Positions 5,429-23,148 of a DNA stretch of 23,341 nt are shown here, in pieces. Source of the stretch: Amoeboradix gromovi (lineage: Eukaryota > Sanchytriomycota > Sanchytriomycetes > Sanchytriales > Sanchytriaceae); contig JADGIF010000074.1 in the NCBI GenBank assembly GCA_018985225.1, positions 1-23,341 of the forward strand. Reading direction: 5' to 3'. Position 1 is the first letter of the stretch. Every line of letters begins with the position of its first letter. A model generated the notes under the pieces. That model was not told the origin of the DNA. It worked only from the letters and a program-made list of their open reading frames with translations, and did no database searches. The position numbers and the translations under genes were made by a program.

Positions 5429-5595
5429 TCACAGCTCCAAATTAAAAGTCTTGTCAACCAGAATATCAAAAATTTCCATAGAAAAACTGGAAATGCTAGT
5501 CGCTCCGTTACAATGGTCATTCATAATTTCGTTACTTTGAGACAGTACTTAACAAGGTTCTATAAATTTCAGATGCGTATCACCTACTAACATAT
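5429..5595 (-). pseudogene. TnpB/Fanzor-like relic 1, C-terminal end only
   Basis: The reverse strand from the TIR-element border encodes the C-terminal ~55 residues of the same family as relic 2 (17471-17876). Residue-by-residue alignment without gaps gives HLKFIEPC against CIKYLHPY. After a short variable stretch comes HCNGATSISSFS against RCNGASSTASFS, then FDILVDKTF against LDFLGNPDF. It has an internal in-frame TAA (bases 5549-5551 on the reverse strand) and ends at a TGA at 5429-5431. The match to relic 2 runs up to the CATATG that, in relic 2, lies just after the RuvC-III DRD motif. There it stops at the TIR element, with no recognisable upstream half on the other side. It is a dead fragment. 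Family identity is inherited from relic 2, because no zinc finger is left here. Confidence 0.6.
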
Positions 5596-5666
5596 GAGAC
5601 ATCAAATATAAAAACTGGACTAACTTTCTATAACAAGTTGGAACATTATCTCAGCTTTATTAATTT

Positions 5667-5728
5667 TATGGATTTAAGAGGCGAGTGGACATTCAGCTAG
5701 TTGCGGAGTTGACGAGTATAAAAGGAAA
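5667..5728 (+). promoter_or_regulatory. Conserved TATA block of the TIR element (copy 1)
   Basis: These 62 bp are identical to 12598-12659 (reverse strand) in copy 2, while flanking internal sequence differs by several substitutions and indels. The block ends with a consensus TATAAAAGG at 5717-5725, about 216 bp upstream of the ATG of the 58-codon ORF. A promoter role is inferred from the TATA box, the position and the conservation. Confidence 0.55.
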
Positions 5729-5791
5729 ATAGATATTCTGTACAGCTATTCTCTTACTCTTTCATCCAATCTTTATTTCAAATAAACCTCT

Positions 5792-5867
5792 GATTCATAA
5801 TACTAATTCATAGTACTAATTCATAATACTGATTCATAATACTGATTCATAATACTGATTCATAATA
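5792..5867 (+). repeat. 13-bp minisatellite, about 5.8 copies
   Basis: Tandem units of GATTCATAATACT follow one another with a few substitutions (AATTCATAATACT, AATTCATAGTACT). The array lies between the TATA block and the ORF, in the presumed transcript leader. It falls within the part missing from copy 2. Confidence 0.9.
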
Positions 5868-5940
5868 GGGTATATTTTCATTAAGAACTATCCAGAAAGA
5901 ACTGCCTTGCACATGAATAGAGACCTTTCCTAATAAAGTT

Positions 5941-6117
5941 ATGGCCAAGAGAAAGCAAAAGCTTTCATACACCAGTAAATCAAAGAAGTGTAGTGTCTGT
6001 GAGAATGAAATTGACAAGAGTAATGATGTTAGTATAACATTACAAAATGATACTAGAAAAGAGTATCGTCTAAGAAAATGCACCTTTTGCTTAGATGCTC
6101 AAGGACCTCATATCTAG
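5941..6117 (+). CDS. 58-residue basic protein with two CxxC pairs, carried by TIR element
   Basis: The ORF runs from ATG at 5941 to TAG at 6115-6117. An in-frame TGA upstream without another ATG makes this the only possible Met start. The product begins MAKRKQKLSYTSKSKKCSVC, strongly basic, and has CSVC at residues 17-20 and CTFC at 47-50, spaced like a zinc ribbon or treble clef. It ends LDAQGPHI. In copy 2 the last 35 codons remain open with the same stop, CTFC is retained, and only three residues change (V to A, T to S, G to R). This suggests a real protein rather than chance. A DNA-binding role in the element (end recognition or repression) is inference. The antisense frame here is also open, encoding a hydrophobic 78-residue chain, and cannot be fully excluded. 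I do not recognise the family. Confidence 0.5.
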   Translation: MAKRKQKLSYTSKSKKCSVCENEIDKSNDVSITLQNDTRKEYRLRKCTFCLDAQGPHI

Positions 6118-6249
6118 TTTTATTTTGAAGAGGGGATTGAAAGTAATGAAAGAAAATTGGTATAATAGAAGATCTTTTATTAATCATTTCATCCGTATGG
6201 AGCACCTCCTTTAAAAACGAGTTAGTCTAGTTTTTATATTTGGTGTCCC

Positions 6250-6604
6250 AAAGCGTAATACGAAAGAGAAAGTTAGCATTGAAGATAACCAAGAAGGCGA
6301 AACGTAGAAACATGGAATAGAAATTATATCTCAGTACTAAAAACGATTAGAGAGACTGCTTATAGACTTGAACATGTTAAATACCCATCTCTCCTTCCCT
6401 GAAATTGGGTTGAAGAATAAAAACACCACCACAGTCCAAAGGATTTTCGTGCATAGTTGCGAGAAAGATAATGAGCCAAGAAATTTAGTTTAAATCAAGG
6501 ATTGGCGTTTTTTAAGTATCTGCCTAGGAACAGGAAGATCTTTTCATAATGGTATCTCTTCCTCCGATGGGCTACTGTTTGGAAACTCACCCCAATTAGT
6601 CTAC
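6250..6604. other. Intergenic region between TIR element and MDM1-like gene
   Basis: These 355 bp hold the presumed promoter of the MDM1-like gene. I see no tRNA, repeat or recognisable protein. A run of about 50 open codons on the plus strand (6341-6493) and overlapping open runs on the minus strand have no recognisable motif. The missing upstream half of the adjacent Fanzor relic was looked for here and not found. Confidence 0.5.
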
Positions 6605-12021: not shown

Positions 12022-12444
12022 ACTCACGAAATATTAATTAAGAAACACGCGTTAGTGCTTTTAATGCTTTAAGAATTTTCTTTGGCCAAAGTTTACTGCA
12101 AAGTTCCTGGATAACTACAAAGTCTTTAAGTTTAGAAATTTTTATAGTACTAGAAGTGCTATCTTGTCAAGTTATTTCGAGTATTTACATTCATTGAATA
12201 TGGAGAGCGCAGGTCAGTTCCGTCTTGAGATTTTCTTGTCTAGATGAATAATACCTGCTTAACAATAGCAGAAGATTTCGTCAATTTGACCTTTGCTCTA
12301 ATTGGTAATCGCGTTAGGCAAATAGCTATTGGGACACCAAATATAAAAACTAGACTAACTCACTGAGGTAATGCTATCATTAATAAAAGATCTTCTATTA
12401 TACCAGTTTTCTTTTATTGATTGTATTCCCTCTTCAAAATAATA

Positions 12445-12552
12445 CTAGATATGAGGTCTTTGAGCATCTAAGCAAAAGGTGCATTTTCTTAGACGGTACT
12501 CTTTTCTAGAGTCATTTTGTAATGTTATACTAGCATCATTACTCTTATCTAT
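12445..12552 (-). pseudogene. C-terminal remnant of the element-borne two-CxxC ORF
   Basis: Thirty-five codons ending at TAG (reverse of 12445-12447) match residues 24-58 of the 58-residue protein of copy 1, with changes V to A, T to S and G to R. CTFC is kept. The first CxxC and the start codon are gone, and no in-frame ATG lies upstream back to a stop before the TATA block, so no complete protein can be made. Confidence 0.65.
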
Positions 12553-12597
12553 TCTAGTTTTTACAGAGTAATAGTGATATTTTATTTGAGATAAAGA

Positions 12598-12659
12598 TTT
12601 CCTTTTATACTCGTCAACTCCGCAACTAGCTGAATGTCCACTCGCCTCTTAAATCCATA
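12598..12659 (-). promoter_or_regulatory. Conserved TATA block of the TIR element (copy 2)
   Basis: This is identical over 62 bp to 5667-5728. TATAAAAGG reads on the minus strand at 12601-12609. In this copy it would drive a short transcript over the ORF remnant. Confidence 0.5.
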
Positions 12660-13447
12660 AATTAATAAAGCTGAAATAATGATTCAAACTTTATCAGAAA
12701 GTTAATCCAGTTTTTATATTTGATGTCCCTATTAATTAGCTTCCTACATTTTAGCATGAATTTCGAACTAGACAACGGTTCAATTTTTTCGCCCAACTTC
12801 ATTATACAGCTATCGAAAAATCACTTCCACCGCATCGCTAATTTATACAGGAATCTGGATGCTCCGAAGCCATTCCAAAGCCAAATTAGATCGCTGAGAG
12901 TAGATTATTGTCAGGAAGTCTAAGGTTTACTGAGTACCAGTCTTCAGGAAACCATTTTAGATTCAATATAACTGACAGCTTCATGAACCATCCTTTCGAA
13001 TGTACTACATCTGCTGTCAGAGATTATTTTTCTGATTATAAGACGATAATTCGACATTCTACGGCATTTTCCTTCGACTTGTGGTGTTGTTCCTGAATAG
13101 GCAACTGTTATCATTGGTAACTCTTGCCACTTACTCATTAAACTCTAGCCATCTTTCACTTTCTTAAGTTTGGTCATTTATGTATTTGGGTGTCTGAGAT
13201 ATCTTATTGTTTCTGGATAGCGGCAATCTAAATGGGAAACTTTTAATTGCTGTCAAATGTGTAATTACAACAAATTTTCACCTTTGGGATAACTCGCATA
13301 ATAGCTTTACATAATGTCTTAGCAGTTTCAATACACAAAACATCGACATGGTCCTAAGGCTTACATCATTGATGTTTGTAGGGTTTCTGGTAATTGCGAA
13401 TAATGATGGAACTTAAAAGTTATGTGCAAATTAATCAATTTATTAGC

Positions 13448-16030
13448 TTATATAAACAAATCGCCAGGTGCCAATGTTTCCATTGTAAGTGAAGAATTGT
13501 TTATTTGCTTTTCATCACATAGAAACCATATTGGGTATTCTACCACATGTCCTTTGATCCCATCCAACAATGAAAGTTCTTTTTCCGTAAGTTCTTGCTC
13601 ATGCTTGCCTGCCCGTTGTATATCTTTGTAGCTCTTCATCAGATCATCGGGGTATGGATTAAATACGGTCCTATATATATTGCTATTGGAGTTGGCCCTT
13701 ATTGCCCACAATCCCCATGCTTCTTCACTAGCTGGGTCTACAATACCAGGATCAATCTCGCCTAGATGCTCCTTCCATAAATCCATCCTAAGTTGTTTTA
13801 TAGGGTTGCTAATATGTAGCACAGATTCGAGATAATCAGATGATGTGTACTCACTAAGAACTGCTATTTCACTGTCTCTGTTACCTAGTAAGCTTCTATC
13901 ATTGATATTAGCTGATCCTAATAAGCATCGCCTATCATCGACAATTAGCAGTTTGGAATGAATATAGATCTGTTCATTAGCTGCTATGTTATTTTTCTTT
14001 GCATAATTTCTTAATCCAAATACTCTAAAGTAGACATTCGAATCGATTCCTTCTTTTTGTAGCAACGAATATATACTCGCATCTCCTTTGCTTATTGTAG
14101 AGTATTGGAACTGCAAGATAAACTTTGAAGTGTTCCCTTGGTCTCCACTTAGCTCGCCTGTAAATCCTGGCACAAGTGGAATCAGTAAAAAGACTCTGAA
14201 TTGCGTGCCTTCCTTATATGCCCTTATGATTCGATCTACCAATTCCTTGGCCACAGTGTTTTTTACATACTCGCTAGAACTAGTGTTGCTGACAAAGAAT
14301 TGGTTCTCCATATATATAAAATGTTGCGATTCTCTAATTAATGCAACATAAGCTGCTAATATACTCTTTTCGGTTGGCTGCCCAATACTCCACGGCGATG
14401 CAGATCTGAGTACTTGCGTGGCAACAAAATTTTGTTTTATTATTCTCTTGGAATGTTGATTTGGGGGGATCATGAATGGGACTTCTCTCTTAGTTTTTCC
14501 CAATTTAGCGTGATTCCAATACTGTATAAAGTGATAGCACATGTCTAATACACTTTCTCCTTCTATTCTACTATGCACATCATGCCATGGCATTCTTGGT
14601 TGGTCTCTACTAATGTTATCTACAGACCACTGTGACCTGACTTTAATAAAGTCTTTGATTCTGATGTTGTTGTAGTCTTGTCCTGGTAGATTAATGTTGT
14701 CATCAAACAGTGCATGCTCCTGCCTAGTCCATCTGCCAAGGCAGAGGTCAATTCCACCGACGAATCCAAATAATTCGTCAACAACGACGATCTTTTCGTG
14801 GTGAGACCACATTAAACTTCCTGTTGAAGAGAAGTGATCCGGGTGTCTTTGGACATATATGTTTCGATGTAGTTGATTTAAATATAATTTTGTGTGCTCT
14901 GAATCATTTGGTAGGGCTAAGTTCATTTCTTTGAATACCAGGATGTATATAGACACGTTTCTCTCAGCAGCACGCAGCAATACTCTATCTAGTCTGCTAT
15001 GTTCGTTATCAGCGTACGGCCTCAGCAAATATAATTCAGGCGTTAACCACCAATCTGATATGTATATACTTTTAGTGGCTGATTCTATATGACCAATTAG
15101 AGCCTTGAAGTAGTTGGAGGCATCGATATAGTATGCAACACCACCTTGTCTAATTGGTGCAAATGAACCAAACCTGTGATACTTTCCATAAATGGAGTTG
15201 CTGATTCTATCATATAGAGAACTGGTAAATAACAAGTATTCATGTCTTCCGAGCTTAACACGAACCGTATTGCTGTAGTTTGTGAGCTTTATTTTGTTTT
15301 TTTTGATTTTAGAAGATTTGATATCAATTTTGAAATTTTGATTAAATAGCAAAAGGGCTAGGATGGAAGTAGACCATGGGTTAGAAAATAGGGCAATGCA
15401 GGAGTCGTAGATTACGCCATAAACAGAGTTATAACCGCTCAAGTGAATCGTGTATTTATTGCTTTTCGGAGCCAGATGATGAGCATCAAACTTTAATTCG
15501 ATTGGTTTAGTATCGCAGCAAAAAGAATTAGAGGAAACATTAAGAAATTGCAAGATATCTAGTTCAACGTTAGTAAATGTGAAGTTGGCAACTAGTCTTT
15601 CTAGATAAACCTGGACGTGATGTGATTGAATAGCGGCAGAATCCGAACGATCTAAAGGAAAATCAGGAAGGGAGGGTAGATCTCTTCTTCCAAATTTAAT
15701 TGATTTTAATTCCGCATGGAACCTAAACAAAGCTCCAAATTTCTTTTTCACACTCCACTCAAAATTGCCGTAGGTTAAATAAATTACGAAAAAGTTCAAT
15801 TCTTTTTCAACATGGACAGTCAAGAACGGCGAGATTGATATTGTGTTGCATAGAAATGATGGGCATAACATCGCCATTCTAAACGCCCAAAAATAGTGAT
15901 CATCAGCAACAACATTTTTTTTCAAATAAGCACGCTTGGCAGATTTTTTGAGTTTCGATATTGTCTTCGTAAGTACACTGAATGATACTCCATTTGGAGT
16001 AGGGCTTAATGGAGTGCTCTCCACTTCCAT
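13448..16030 (-). CDS. SPO14: Phospholipase D1 (PX-PH-HKD2), Spo14 family
   Basis: This 860-residue enzyme hydrolyses phosphatidylcholine to phosphatidic acid and choline. A PX domain occupies ~70-170 and a PH-like domain ~172-290. The catalytic core starts with WWLTPELYLLRP. HKD motif 1 is HEKIVVVD with catalytic His at 411 (HxKxxxxD complete), followed by GFVGGIDLCLGRW. PRMPWHDVHSRIEG, then SPWSIGQPTEKSILAAYVAL and SQHFIYMENQFFVS follow. HKD motif 2 is HSKLLIVD with His at 691, followed by GSANINDRSLLGNRDSE. The C-terminus keeps FNPYPDDLMKSY. All catalytic residues are present. It is shorter than yeast Spo14 (1,683) and human PLD1 (1,074) because the N-terminal extension is short. In fungi the enzyme supports sporulation membranes and PIP2-regulated traffic. 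Start MEVESTPLSP is the first Met, 33 bp downstream of the LRR relic's stop. Confidence 0.95.
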   Translation of the reverse strand: MEVESTPLSPTPNGVSFSVLTKTISKLKKSAKRAYLKKNVVADDHYFWAFRMAMLCPSFLCNTISISPFLTVHVEKELNFFVIYLTYGNFEWSVKKKFGALFRFHAELKSIKFGRRDLPSLPDFPLDRSDSAAIQSHHVQVYLERLVANFTFTNVELDILQFLNVSSNSFCCDTKPIELKFDAHHLAPKSNKYTIHLSGYNSVYGVIYDSCIALFSNPWSTSILALLLFNQNFKIDIKSSKIKKNKIKLTNYSNTVRVKLGRHEYLLFTSSLYDRISNSIYGKYHRFGSFAPIRQGGVAYYIDASNYFKALIGHIESATKSIYISDWWLTPELYLLRPYADNEHSRLDRVLLRAAERNVSIYILVFKEMNLALPNDSEHTKLYLNQLHRNIYVQRHPDHFSSTGSLMWSHHEKIVVVDELFGFVGGIDLCLGRWTRQEHALFDDNINLPGQDYNNIRIKDFIKVRSQWSVDNISRDQPRMPWHDVHSRIEGESVLDMCYHFIQYWNHAKLGKTKREVPFMIPPNQHSKRIIKQNFVATQVLRSASPWSIGQPTEKSILAAYVALIRESQHFIYMENQFFVSNTSSSEYVKNTVAKELVDRIIRAYKEGTQFRVFLLIPLVPGFTGELSGDQGNTSKFILQFQYSTISKGDASIYSLLQKEGIDSNVYFRVFGLRNYAKKNNIAANEQIYIHSKLLIVDDRRCLLGSANINDRSLLGNRDSEIAVLSEYTSSDYLESVLHISNPIKQLRMDLWKEHLGEIDPGIVDPASEEAWGLWAIRANSNSNIYRTVFNPYPDDLMKSYKDIQRAGKHEQELTEKELSLLDGIKGHVVEYPIWFLCDEKQINNSSLTMETLAPGDLFI

Positions 16031-17470: not shown

Positions 17471-17876
17471 TTAAAAGTCCGGATTTCCGAGAAAATCGAG
17501 AATTCTTACAGAGAAACTAGCAGTGCTAGATGCTCCGTTACAGCGATTGCCCAAGTTTGCACTACCCTGAGGCGGGATTGAATAAGGATGCAGATACTTG
17601 ATGCATATGTTCCTTGCTGCCATATGGTCTCTATCTATCTCCAAATGACACTTTGTGCAGGTTCAGGTTTCTAAGTTGGTTTTCTTTAGAGTACCACACC
17701 TTGTACATGTCTGACTAGTAAATGCTTCATTACATTCCACCATCGTCTTTCCTCTTTGCTTACACTTGAACTTCAAGCGTTCCTTGAATAAGTTGTATAG
17801 ACATCTCTTTCCTGGCGTCGAAAGACATCAAATTGCTCCATGCTTGGGCCAGTTCCTCAACGATGATCAGTTTATG
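17471..17876 (-). pseudogene. TnpB/Fanzor-like RNA-guided nuclease relic 2 (C-terminal half)
   Basis: Read on the minus strand it begins KLIIVEELAQAW, resembling RuvC-II (hydrophobic strand then E). It shifts one base near 17790, then reads LFKERLKFKCKQRGKTMVEC and EAFTSQTCTRCG, followed by a Lys-rich loop. After an in-frame TGA (17663-17665) come TCTKCHLEIDRDHMAARNI and a C-terminal tail ending at TAA (17471-17473). The order E-x-x-TS-x-x-CxxCG ... CxxC ... DRD-xx-AARNI is diagnostic of the zinc finger and RuvC-III of TnpB/IS607-OrfB and their eukaryotic Fanzor relatives. The RuvC-I half is not found upstream. One frameshift and one stop make it inactive. Intact relatives are RNA-guided DNA endonucleases spread with transposons. 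Confidence 0.82.
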
Positions 17877-18125: not shown

Positions 18126-21100
18126 TTATTTGAACAAGTTCTTGTATTTTGCGTTCTTGTCTGTAATTCGAGGCGGCATAGTTCCCGTAATATTGTCTTG
18201 ATCTTTCGCATAATCCAATAATTCTTTCCAGAAATCATTTTCTAATAACGATTGTGCATTCCCCACTACATACAAAGAATACTTGGCTCTAGTTAATGCC
18301 ACATTCATTCTTCTTATATCCTTCAAGAATCCTACACTCTTACTTCTCGAGTATCCACGAACTGTACTTAATATAATAATGTCTGACTCTTGTCCCTGAT
18401 ATCCATCGATGGAGCTGATTCTTACTGTATTTAATATATCAGTCCCAAATGATCTTCGCAGTTCATTTCCAATCAGCCTAACCTGTGATTTGTAGGGCGA
18501 TATAATACTGATTTTATCTTTGAACTAAGTGAAGTAAAAGTACATTAATTTCTGGATATGTATACGCTATGTATTTTATCAAATCCACTACTGCTGCTGC
18601 TTCTTTGGCGTTACTCAATGATTTGTTATGATTGTTATGGCTACCTTTGATATCAAAGAATCTAAATGGTCCCAAATATCTGTTATTGTGCCATTCCTTT
18701 GTCCATTTGACAAGATCTACGCCGTCTGTTATTTTGTTACCGTAAAACAGCTTACTTGGAAATCTGCTGATATCAGGATGCATTCTGTACTGCACACTAA
18801 GTAATTCACTTTTGTCCGTGTTTTGATTGTACAATCTATCGAATAAACTTTGCTCATAGTTGTAGTCTTTTGCTATTCTACTTATTACAGTCGGTGGCAA
18901 CTGTTTATGGTCACCGACTAAGACACAGTTTTCGCATCCATGTTGCAATGGAATCAGACTAGACAACTCTACACTTTGCGCTGCCTCATCAATAACTACA
19001 TATTTCCAAACCACTCCTGACTTCTTTAAGAAGTCGTGACCACTACCAGTTAATGTGCAACACACGATATTGGCTTCTTTTAGTATCTCATTCCTTATCT
19101 TTTGTTTACTGTCTTCATTGGACACACTCTTTTGCCTTTTGCTCTTTAGCTTGTCTATCTGGTGTTTGTATTTAAGAATCTCACTCTTCTCTAAACTTGT
19201 ACGGTTGACTGCTGGAATAGCTTGCAGTATTGCCATCTTATTAGTTAATAATTTCTCATTGTCTTCAATCATAGAGCTCGCTTTATCTTCTATTCTGCTA
19301 TTTAATATACTATCCAAGGACACGTGCTGCAAGTCCTTGCTAATTTGATCAACCACACCTAGCCTAACAATTAGCGGATATATTTTCTTGCCGTTAGAAT
19401 CATAAAGCCCAGGCAGCAATCTCTTGATTATAACATCAATGGCTGCATTGCTAGGTGCACAGACTAGTACAGTACCATTCATTTTTATAGATCCCATAGT
19501 ACTACCTGGAGCGTTGATTCTGTTTCCTTTGCTTGGGGGATGCAGTAGAAAACAGTTGATGATGCTAGATATAGTCATAGTCTTGCCCGTACCGGGTGGC
19601 CCTTGAATTAAGGAAAATCCTTTGGCCCTAGAAACGCTGTTTATAACAGCAGTAGATTGGGGTTTATTCAGCTTATGTGCGCTACAAATTGCCTGCAACT
19701 TAGATAATTGCCTATCGTTATATTTTATAGGACGTATAACGGCATTTAATATGTCATTGATTAATGGGAACTTTGCTGATTTACCAAATGCATTAAATTC
19801 ACGAATACTTGTAGTGCAGCTATATATCTTGGTTAAGTTCAATTTTGTGTCGATATTGCAAGTACGCTGAACCAATTTCTCATGTGCTTTGATTCTCACT
19901 TTTAACTTGTTCTTGAAAAAATTAGAATTCTCCACAAACCCCAAATATTCCTTAAACTCATCATTAGTATTTAAAATCTGGATAGCTACTACATCATTCT
20001 CTAGCAAGACACGCGCACTTTCGTCCAATTCACATGTGATTATACTAAAATCATCTATAGACTCGATATACTCTACCTTAGTGCTAAAATGCACAAAGTA
20101 TTCGCCATCCTCCTCTTTACATTGCTGTATGGACTCATAGAGTTCATAGTATATTAATGGTTGATATATATCATGATACTCATTTATATCTTTAAACTTA
20201 CTTGGTACTTGAACAGGCTCATCAAAGGTCAAATTAGTGAATAGAGATTTATAACTTGGTAGTATTGTATTTTTAGATATATCCCAGGCCAGAACTTGCT
20301 TTAGTAAAGTAGACAATGCTAGCTCAGGCGTTTTAATGCTGTTGAATGAATGATGAGGCTCAGGCTTTACCATTTTTACAGAATAATCAGGTTTATATCG
20401 TTTCACGATGTTGTCAGTATCTACATACTTTGCTTCCCTTTTAAACGGTACTAAATGTTCATTAACGCTGCTATCACTGCTTAATTCAACCATTTCTTGC
20501 CGCTCTTCATGGGCATGTGTTTTTACAGCATTTCTATTGATAACATCATTTACTGGTGTGCGATCGGAATTATAGATATCAGGCAGTTGGTAGAGAACAG
20601 CCTCACTCGTGTTCTCATCATTGTTCGTTATAAACTCCATACAGTTCTTATATCCAAGCACCTTGGTTTTCAAGACCTCTCTTAACTCCGAATCAGCTAC
20701 AGGATACACAGTTTCTATCAGATACAATGGTGAATAAAACTTTGAGTATAATGAGGTTACACTAGACTGCCAAGAATCGGTATTTTGGACATATATGCCC
20801 GCCAAATTTATGATTTGTTGTTTTACAAATTCAATCAAACTTTTGAGTTCCTGTTGCATAGGCAAATTAGATACCGGAAAAAACAATTTTGTCATGTTCA
20901 ACAGTCCAGCCAATAAATTGAGGTGCAGGATGTGAACATTGAGCAAAATTTCAGACCCATCCACTTGAAGGAACAGATCGGTACAAAATTCAAAAATACC
21001 AGAACAATTTAACAAGACGTCTGCATAATAGTGACCCTGATTAAGCAGTTTATAAGTAGAGTTAAAGAAATCTGTCAAACAGTTTAAGAACTTTGCGCTA

Positions 21101-22584
21101 TTTGATTTATAAATAAGGTTTAGTTCATTTGACTCTATCCCAGATTCAGAATACCTGAACAGATATGCCACATTACCAACTAGTTCGTTAAAAAATGATA
21201 ATCCTATTAGAGTATCCCCTATAGAAGACAATTGCGAACCATCAATAGTCGGATCAAGATTCGAAATTGCTTTTTTAATCAAGATGTTACAATGTAACTG
21301 TAATTTAGATAAGCTATGTTTTCTTATAGTGGGGTAGATATAAATGTCCTTTAAGCAGGACAAAATAATTTTTTGTTGCTCTAAAGAAGCATTCTTGTAA
21401 ACGAGTTCAAATGAAAAAGAAGATAAAACAGTCTCTACAACAGCAACTCTCTCTTTAGACACTTTACCACCCGTAAATATAACAGAAATGCACTCTTTTA
21501 CAATGCCAAGGCACTTCATTAAAAGACTGTACTGATTTTGCGAAAAAGGGGAGTTATTTAAGATGTACAAGGAATCAGAATAAAATGATTGGGAGAAGGA
21601 AGTTGACTCGATTTCTTCAACCAGCTTGCTATAAAGCTTATCCGATAGCATCGTTTTGAAGTTACCTTTTATATGAGGATTGTTCAAAAAAGCTGCAATT
21701 TTATCTGATGAGATTGAAGAGTACAGATCTAGATCAGTAAAGAACTCATTTGTATAGTCGCTTTGCTCATGCTCAGGTATGTTTGTGTTTGCAATTGTAT
21801 TTAAAAGGGTTGAGATATCAATGGTAGTGAAACTCGCAGAATAAAGAAATTCCATTATTTTTGACAGGGACCTCGAGTTAGGCAACTTAGATAAAAAAGT
21901 GTCTAGCTTGTAGCTATCAACCACAGTCTTTAATGCAGCTGTGTTCAGTATTGATAGCATAGAATAGAGACAGGAGATGATGTTATCCGGTGCTGTATCT
22001 AGTTTGAAGATTCCAGGCAAAGATGACGATTTACTATCAAGAACGCTGATCATGTACTTGAAATACTTATCAGTATTTTCTATGAACTCATCTGCATTCA
22101 AATCTTTAAACTTGGATATATACCGCATCCCAAAAGATTTGCAATATTTGTCAGGAAGAAGCAACATAAAGGAAATGCCATTTAAAAATTTGGGATTTAA
22201 AGGAAAATTATCTACAGCTTTGTTCAATATATTGAGTTCTTTAAATTTCTGGATAAAAGGTTGGTTAACCCACAAAGGGTCACGAAAAATAGCAATAAAG
22301 CAAGTGGCCAAGTCCAATGGATCTGAGTTTCGGAGAATTGGTAAGCACCTTCTTAGTTCCAAGTCTCTTAGTAACTCCCTCACACTAGAATCCTTGATTT
22401 GATCAACGACGTCATAAAATGAAATAGTACAGGATATACAGTTTGATAGTACAACCTTTAGTTTTTCCTTGATTCTGTTCCCGAGAACCTTATCATCTAG
22501 TTTAAAAAGCATGTCGATTGCTTCACCTTTGGTTTCTTTAATACAATACCAATGATTCTGTCTAAATATGTGAGTTGAACTCAT
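18126..22584 (-). CDS. SEN1: Sen1/senataxin-type RNA-DNA helicase (two exons)
   Basis: Exon 1 is 22584-18544 and exon 2 is 18524-18126 (minus strand), 1,479 residues after removing 19 nt. The N-terminal ~650 residues are helical, as in the SEN1_N domain. The superfamily 1 Upf1-like helicase follows: Q-motif region NKPQSTAVINSV, Walker A GPPGTGKT at 995-1002, Walker B DEAAQS near 1199, motif III GDHKQLPPTV, and motif IV region QYRMHPDISRFPSKLFYG. Exon 2 supplies ISIISPYKSQ, SSIDGYQGQESD (motif V) and RRMNVALTRAK (motif VI). Without the splice the protein would stop at 1,356 residues and lack motifs V and VI. Sen1 terminates noncoding transcription and resolves R-loops in the nucleus. It is shorter than yeast Sen1 (2,231). 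The start is the first Met, MSSTHIFRQNHWYC. Helicase identity is near certain; Sen1 is favoured over Upf1 by the N-terminal domain and motifs. Confidence 0.93.
18525..18543 (-). other. Candidate 19-nt spliceosomal intron in SEN1
   Basis: On the minus strand GTACTTTTACTTCACTTAG interrupts the helicase frame after ...YPEIN. Removing exactly these 19 nt (phase 0) joins to FKDKISIISPYKSQ, the expected Sen1 sequence, and makes the total a multiple of three. No other GT-AG choice nearby restores both frame and homology; the next AG would give 26 nt and the wrong frame. No clear branch-point consensus is present. Confidence 0.7.
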
Positions 22585-22944
22585 TAAGGAGGTTTTGTAG
22601 TAAAATTAAATTTTCAAGAACGTAGGACATGCTAAATGAAAAGAGCGGAAAACTCTGAAATGATTACAGATACAAAAGTGGAGTTTTCTTATTAGATGGC
22701 CAACATTTCATCAAAAGATCCCAAAACCCTGGTGTGCAGGTCCTAGCATAAATTGTACCTCCAGTACAATTTTTAGTAAAACAATAAAACTCAAGAATTG
22801 TAGACCTGGCACAAACAGAATCTATGCTGGGACACACAGTGTCCACAAAATATGAAATAAGATGATGTTAAAAAGCAAGACGTCAATGTGACATTGATGA
22901 CGCAGGTATATACACAAAAGAAAGGGCCATTGTGGTATACCTAA
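22585..22944. other. Intergenic region upstream of SEN1
   Basis: These 360 bp hold the SEN1 5' flank. I see no tRNA. A minus-strand ORF of 60 codons (22664-22846) is Cys-rich (MDTVCPSIDSVCARST...) and unrecognised, with a hydrophobic-plus-cysteine composition that may be chance. Inverted repeats occur at 22750-22772 and around 22825-22840 (GGACAC-ACA-GTGTCC). Confidence 0.35.
22750..22772. repeat. Perfect 9-bp inverted repeat, 5-nt loop
   Basis: AAATTGTAC-CTCCA-GTACAATTT forms a 9-bp stem. With the second palindrome GGACAC-ACA-GTGTCC some 70 bp further on, it sits in the SEN1 upstream region. Function is unknown. Confidence 0.6.
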
Positions 22945-23148
22945 CAAGAAATTGGTGTATCCGCTTGGTTGAAAATCATTGATACTGCCTGTCAGATTTT
23001 AGAATATCCAAAGATTGGTTTAGCTGTCACGGAAGGAATATCAAGTAGAAGAGCATTCAGGGTCTCGCAGAGGTTCAAGGTATGCCAGTGTTCACAATGC
23101 GATGTAGTCGTAGATAGAGATGTGAATGAGAGTTGCAGCAGTCTTTAA
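22945..23148 (+). pseudogene. TnpB/Fanzor-like relic 3, zinc-finger and RuvC-III piece
   Basis: This open stretch of 67 codons without a usable Met ends at TAA 23146-23148. It reads VTEGISSRR, then RFKVCQCSQCDVVVDRDVNES. The spacing E-xx-SS ... CxxC ... DRD-VN matches the end of TnpB-family nucleases (ypS/TSK ... CxxC ... DRDvNAA), with RuvC-III DRD at 23113-23121. The first zinc-binding CxxC is missing and the segment between E and DRD is three residues shorter than in relic 2, so it is degraded. DRDVN differs from DRDHM of relics 1 and 2, suggesting another lineage of the family. No RuvC-I or RuvC-II is visible. The last ~190 bp of the window show nothing I recognise. Confidence 0.5.

Follow-up and report, generated by a model that had tools for sequence, protein, structure and literature searches.

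Very short introns are known from several lineages outside the fungi. As the accessible text of PMC4494063 gives them, introns of chlorarachniophyte nucleomorphs are mostly 18–23 nt long with GT-AG ends, and 19 nt is the commonest length (70.3% in Bigelowiella natans, 49.3% in Lotharella oceanica). For mikrocytid parasites, introns of 16–17 nt and a spliceosome of 17–19 proteins are reported (PMC10245619), and for heterotrich ciliates such as Stentor introns of 15–16 nt (PMC10245619). Among fungi, Cryptococcus neoformans has a mean intron length of 63 bp, which its report gives as short (PMC8476143).

Here we describe a 19-nt insert in a Sen1 helicase gene, located on a 23,341-nt stretch of DNA (the window) whose assembly totals 6.78 Mb, together with a class of similar inserts elsewhere in the same genome. 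The class resembles that of the nucleomorphs in having GT-AG introns with a mode of 19 nt; however, nucleomorphs are remnants of a green algal endosymbiont's nucleus and carry a few hundred genes, whereas the assembly studied here has a probable fungal affinity and contains a U4 gene, which is not reported in nucleomorphs in the accessible text (PMC4494063). Mikrocytids share with this genome a narrow length class and a conserved intron sequence, but their introns are two to three nt shorter and the organisms belong to the Rhizaria (PMC10245619). Heterotrichs likewise have tiny spliceosomal introns and have kept their snRNAs (PMC10245619, PMC9505925), but they are ciliates with large cells and genomes, and their introns are shorter still (PMC10245619). 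C. neoformans offers fungal spliceosomal introns, but these are about three times longer (PMC8476143). Ultrashort introns are known elsewhere; what would be new is their occurrence in a fungal nucleus, an unexpected place. An initial annotation of the window had called the length exceptional for a fungus, and this assessment holds to the extent that searches of the open-licence PubMed Central literature (preprints excluded), as far as its accessible text goes, turned up no fungal introns of 19 nt.

Results

The Sen1 frame is interrupted by 19 nt

The Sen1 gene begins near position 22584 on the minus strand and its frame is interrupted at 18525–18543 (Table 1). Profile searches place AAA_11 and positions 1–107 of the AAA_12 profile in one open frame (ORF1, 18514–22605), and positions 110–194 of AAA_12 in a second (ORF2, 18126–18524) that lies in a different frame; the motifs ISPYKSQ, GYQGQE and NVALTRAK are all carried by exon 2. 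Both the coordinates and the GT-AG ends proposed in the initial annotation for a 19-nt intron were confirmed on the minus strand, and so was the claim that its excision restores frame and homology: the pieces align end to end with a solved Sen1 (8ftm, listed under the name "5'-3' RNA helicase-like protein", and presumably from Chaetomium). ORF1 residue 1353 aligns with residue 637 of the 8ftm chain and ORF2 residue 3 with residue 641; the three chain residues between them correspond to N, F and K once the 19 nt are excised. With the SEN1 chain 8ram of S. cerevisiae the match is off by one (8 chain residues vs. 7 in the window). Sen1 of yeast is essential.

Table 1. Features of the Sen1 gene and its insert (positions in the window).
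Feature	Position	Strand	Remarks
19-nt intron GTACTTTTACTTCACTTAG	18525..18543	minus	phase 0, between N and F of Sen1
5' splice site GTACTT	18538..18543	minus	common variant of the genome's GTA(T/C)TT
Putative branch motif TTCAC	18529..18533	minus	A at 18530 would be intron position 14 of 19
Alternative putative branch A	18535 (TTTAC)	minus	candidate read from the sequence
3' splice site TAG	18525..18527	minus	read from the sequence
Sen1 exon 1	18544..22584	minus	1347 codons from first ATG; AAA_11 and first half of AAA_12
Sen1 exon 2	18126..18524	minus	132 codons and stop; second half of AAA_12

A break of this kind could also stem from a one-base sequencing or assembly error, the 19 nt being coding: a single-base indel near 18524–18543 would likewise join the frames, and the assembly comprises 366 contigs. 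The protein joined in this way, however, would have about six residues that are absent from the solved Sen1. Nor is the gene likely to be a decaying pseudogene copy. Its frame is broken and the window also holds a broken mobile-element remnant, but the helicase profiles are kept in both pieces.

The insert, which has GT-AG ends, occurs only once in the 6,779,989-base (6.78 Mb) assembly. It lacks TAAY, and its best branch match, TTCAC, departs from the consensus of the other introns described below; its motif score is 11.4, compared to 14.3–21.8 for 13 introns of other junctions. Across 229,644 bases, 23 19-mers score as high as the Sen1 copy or higher, against 6.7 expected. The Sen1 intron stands above chance because of its homology, because the break is common to a relative, and because it belongs to a genome-wide class. 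Within the window it ranks second by motif score. The higher-scoring match, of 22 nt (14917–14938), is taken as chance, since it sits within the open frame of a PLD gene and its removal would break that frame.

A relative is broken at the same place

The best non-self match to the Sen1 protein, P0002, is encoded on a 19,954-base ENA contig belonging to a separate assembly; the two proteins are 48% identical across 1,404 alignment columns. The tail of P0002, ...TISVLVINVV, stops where the window frame ends (...EINVLLLHLVQR), the terminus ...KYISRTYSTISVLVINVV aligning with the terminus of the window's exon 1 frame, ...KYIAYTYPEINVLLLHLVQR. Because this separately assembled relative ends at the same position, the frame break is not a sequencing slip, and an error in the window is a very improbable explanation; the shared break similarly leaves the decaying pseudogene extremely unlikely. 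At the codon level, the tail and its stop can be accounted for by a 19-nt GT-AG intron with TTTAA after it, which gives F K as in the window, and enumeration of introns that fit the tail alone also permits one of 24 nt. We infer a 19-nt intron in the P0002 gene at the same place as in the window, as deduced from the protein tail rather than from DNA. A further fragment (P0121; 92 aa) covers 70% of exon 2 at 71% identity and starts at an internal methionine, which fits a frame closed upstream and proves little. IMG/VR, searched with Sen1 and with EF2 for DNA of relatives, yielded no relative.

Short inserts bridge many frame breaks

A sample of 229,644 bases was composed of 200 kb from the assembly, the window and two snRNA loci; the contigs were chosen non-randomly (C1–C10, C50, C100, C150, C200, C250, C300, C338, C340 and C366). 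Between neighbouring same-strand frames whose codon use is coding-like, 24 breaks were found, the window's own included; the shift is +1 in 15, +2 in 7 and absent in 2. The initial annotation had suggested a scan of the genome for short GT-AG insertions. In the sample, a GTA..HAG segment of 18–22 nt bridges 15 of the 24 breaks in frame, compared to a mean of 1.2 and a maximum of 8 for the 1,023 other pairs of 5' triplet and 3' dinucleotide. By length, ten junctions are solved by 19 nt, four by 20 nt and two by 22 nt. That so many junctions are solved by excising a GTA...AG segment of 19 or 20 nt again speaks against sequencing or assembly error.

Consensus-like introns are present at 14 of the 24 breaks, that of the window among them. 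One of the 15 solutions (L006, plus strand) is unlike the intron class; at another break (L016, minus strand) the first bridging candidate is unlike the class as well, and a consensus candidate, GTATTTTGATATTAACTTAG, is also there. A third break (L014, minus strand) has a candidate intron of 25 nt, GTACTTTTGATACTAACATTTGCAG. The nine breaks for which there is no GTA..HAG solution of 18–22 nt may be neighbouring genes. Extrapolation from 14 per 230 kb would put the frame-shifting introns of the assembly at roughly 400, a figure that is only a guess.

Homology at the other junctions

For 14 of the 23 other breaks the two pieces were scanned with profiles separately, that is, unjoined. The G-alpha profile ends at position 185 in one piece and resumes at 186 in the next (20-nt intron), the first piece of EFG_C in elongation factor EF2 ends at position 56 and the second starts at 56 (19-nt intron), and Dynamin_M ends at 239 and resumes at 243 (19-nt intron). 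Other pairs of pieces occur in the expected order: Thiolase N and C, RasGAP and RasGAP_C, GRAM and TBC. At eight of the 14 scanned junctions the second piece had no usable match, or a weak one, to Pfam profiles; CN_hydrolase, cut at profile position 151 of 256, and the C-terminal domain of GH31, whose match stops at 56 of 87, have no visible continuation in the next piece.

EF2 allows a comparison among relatives. Four relatives (P0166 from JGI, P0167 and P0168 from ENA, P0169 from EukProt) have an EF2 that is 88–92% identical to that of the genome, and all four end 2–7 residues past a common VMESFG; the four named fungi aligned with them (Paraphysoderma, Allomyces, Rozella, Schizosaccharomyces) continue with F and LR..T.GQAFPQ. 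Enumeration from the tails shows those of P0166 and P0168 to be compatible with 20-nt introns and that of P0169 with a 19-nt intron, 26 nt also being possible; the P0167 tail, of merely four residues including the stop, gave no intron solution. Introns at a common position in the relatives' EF2 genes are thus a deduction from protein. A break at one place in five members is, moreover, hard to attribute to errors of sequencing.

The recurrent +1 shift (15 of 24 breaks) is what programmed ribosomal frameshifting on an intact RNA might also produce. However, 7 of the 24 breaks, 20-nt cases among them, need a shift of 2, the profiles of G-alpha and EF2 continue too closely to accommodate residues translated from an insert, and the GTAYTT...TAAY.YAG anatomy common to the inserts has no place in a frameshift signal. 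Frameshifting is accordingly a highly unlikely account of the breaks.

Length and consensus of the intron class

In the 229,644 bases, strings of the form GTA..TAAY.YAG occur 16 times at a length of 19 nt, where 2.4 are expected from an order-1 Markov sequence. No other length exceeds 6 occurrences between 12 and 40 nt, or 7 between 12 and 150 nt, the motif count up to 150 nt being the means by which longer introns were covered. One of the 16 strings (in L020) is part of a repeat; they do not include the Sen1 intron, which has no TAAY. Across the assembly as a whole the pattern GTATTTN{0,20}TAAYNTAG is found 156 times vs. 58 for the reversed pattern, and among the 100 matches listed 49 are of 19 nt, 18 of 20 nt, 8 of 21 nt and one of 18 nt. 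The initial annotation had supposed that frame-neutral introns of 18 or 21 nt might lie hidden in other genes; these last two counts bear it out by half, as candidates. The GTACTT version of the pattern is found 101 times vs. 33 for its reverse. The 100 matches listed comprise 73 distinct strings, of which 42 are 19 nt long, and 35 of these carry T or C at position 11, as expected for a YTAAY branch site. Repeats account for some of the matches: one 19-mer, GTACTTCAAAATAATGTAG (e.g., L020:30-48), appears 23 times among the 100 GTACTT matches listed, several near contig ends. A 24-mer, GTACTTTAAAGAAAACTAATTTAG, appears 5 times among the same matches. Overall, 19–21 nt is the commonest intron length detectable in the genome.

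Two further kinds of string deserve mention. GTACTTCAAAATAATGTAG and GTACTTTAAAGAAAACTAATTTAG are intron-like strings within repeats and are candidate introns of a mobile gene. Away from the scored frame breaks, high-scoring intron-like strings of 21 nt (L007:8102-8122, minus) and 23 nt (L021:8350-8372, minus) are candidates for frame-neutral introns or introns of untranslated regions.

The spliceosome and a possible mechanism

Genes for U6, U2 and U4 are present in the assembly, as is Prp8 with an open frame of 2,233 codons. A U2AF-like match falls under the family cut-off, and the same model also matches in two bacterial controls. Neither U1 (Rfam) nor SF1-HH (Pfam) gave a match in the assembly, which does not imply that they are absent.

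The initial annotation had argued that so short an intron leaves no room for a normal branch point and would need an unusual splicing mechanism. As regards the class, the first argument fails, since TAAY precedes the last YAG; for Sen1 itself, with TTCAC, it retains some weight. The second is not supported: the class has a branch-point motif, U2 retains GTAGTA and U6 retains ACAGAGA, which we take to be the sites recognised in splicing. From U6, U2, U4 and Prp8, and from the kept sites in U2 and U6, the ordinary reading is splicing by the major spliceosome. The 19 nt in Sen1 very probably form a spliceosomal intron, one of the class to which most introns detectable here belong.

The anatomy of the class is as follows: mostly GTA(T/C)TT, a YTAAY-like branch site and then YAG, with a total of 19–21 nt and no apparent polypyrimidine tract. 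In the 19-nt form the predicted branch A is position 14, 13 nt downstream of the first G and 5 nt upstream of the last. The 5' sites GTATTT and GTACTT are without the usual G at position 5, so that pairing with an unaltered ACAGAGA of U6 is presumably weaker. The major spliceosome would most likely act in the ordinary order, with the 5' site first and then U2 on the branch site. Splicing in RNA, the choice of branch A and the tolerance of so short a loop are inferred from the DNA.

Very short, uniform and AT-rich inserts would also be in keeping with removal from DNA, in the manner of the internal eliminated sequences of ciliates, or with a non-spliceosomal RNA route. But the inserts have GT-AG ends and a branch-like motif, the assembly contains genes for U2, U4, U6 and Prp8, and its affinity appears to be fungal; either route is scarcely credible. 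Were spliceosomal introns of this size confirmed, the genome would be among those of the organisms with the shortest introns known, and a fungal nucleus would join the short list of lineages with ordinary introns under about 22 nt. Since fungi are the kingdom in which splicing is best understood, transferring such introns to yeast could then be used to test how short an intron the spliceosome can handle.

Affinity of the genome

In EF2 trees the genome and its four relatives form a clade of five (100/100). With two long rows left out, this clade stands beside Blastocladiomycota at 52/70 only, and a tree that joins it to Rozella is not rejected (p-AU 0.556, with no non-fungal outgroup). With the long Drosophila row the clade falls among non-Dikarya fungi, joined to the long Schizosaccharomyces branch (97/89), a placement that may be due to long-branch attraction. 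Rows were hand-picked from the 120 matches listed: 36 for the Drosophila tree and 33 for the other. In the Sen1 tree, for which 25 of the 120 matches listed were named and two of the 25 (P0082 and P0048) were dropped, the cutting motif not being found in them, the window protein and its relative sit on a very long branch. Sanchytriomycota are marked by a small genome, a GC content of about 35%, fast evolution and a sister position to Blastocladiomycota. The GC content of the genome sample is 36%, and the lineage has the look of an early-branching fungus that evolves fast, with a sanchytrid as its likeliest, though unproven, identity.

Published sanchytrid genomes measure 10.5 and 11.2 Mb with GC contents of 36.27 and 34.64%; they are SPAdes single-cell assemblies, and their proteins are TransDecoder frames taken from the contigs (PMC8371127). 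In the accessible text of that report the word stem "intron" occurs once, in the title of a reference. For both sanchytrid species a long-type TPPP (p25-alpha) gene is reported (PMC10459994). No match to PF05517 was found in the 6.78 Mb assembly, which may be incomplete, and absence of p25-alpha is not implied; the result lends no support to a sanchytrid identity.

Proteomes read from open frames on contigs would be cut at introns such as these, and gene content may therefore be partly an artefact. We lean towards the view that a deep lineage of fungi, probably sanchytrids together with uncultured relatives, combines a standard-looking spliceosome with 19-nt introns as its normal introns, that its proteomes are cut at these introns, and that content described as "reduced" or "lineage-specific" is perhaps in part an artefact of annotation. 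Intron-free gene models and claims of gene loss for the lineage may then need redoing.

Mobile elements and repeats in the window

At 17474–17827 on the minus strand lies the remnant of a TnpB/Fanzor-like zinc ribbon, interrupted by a stop, which matches Cas12f1-like_TNB in two pieces (E = 4.7e-10 and 1.3e-4). A second TNB-like match at 22945–23145 (plus), with VVDRDVNE, is much weaker (E = 0.024) and may be chance. Two inverted copies of an element with terminal-repeat-like ends occupy 5595–6251 and 12328–12732; their arms extend to 129 nt at 93% complementarity and 64 nt at 100%, and the element is apparently a short mobile element. The intergenic segment 5777–5880 is a tandem array of a 13-nt unit, CTGATTCATAATA.
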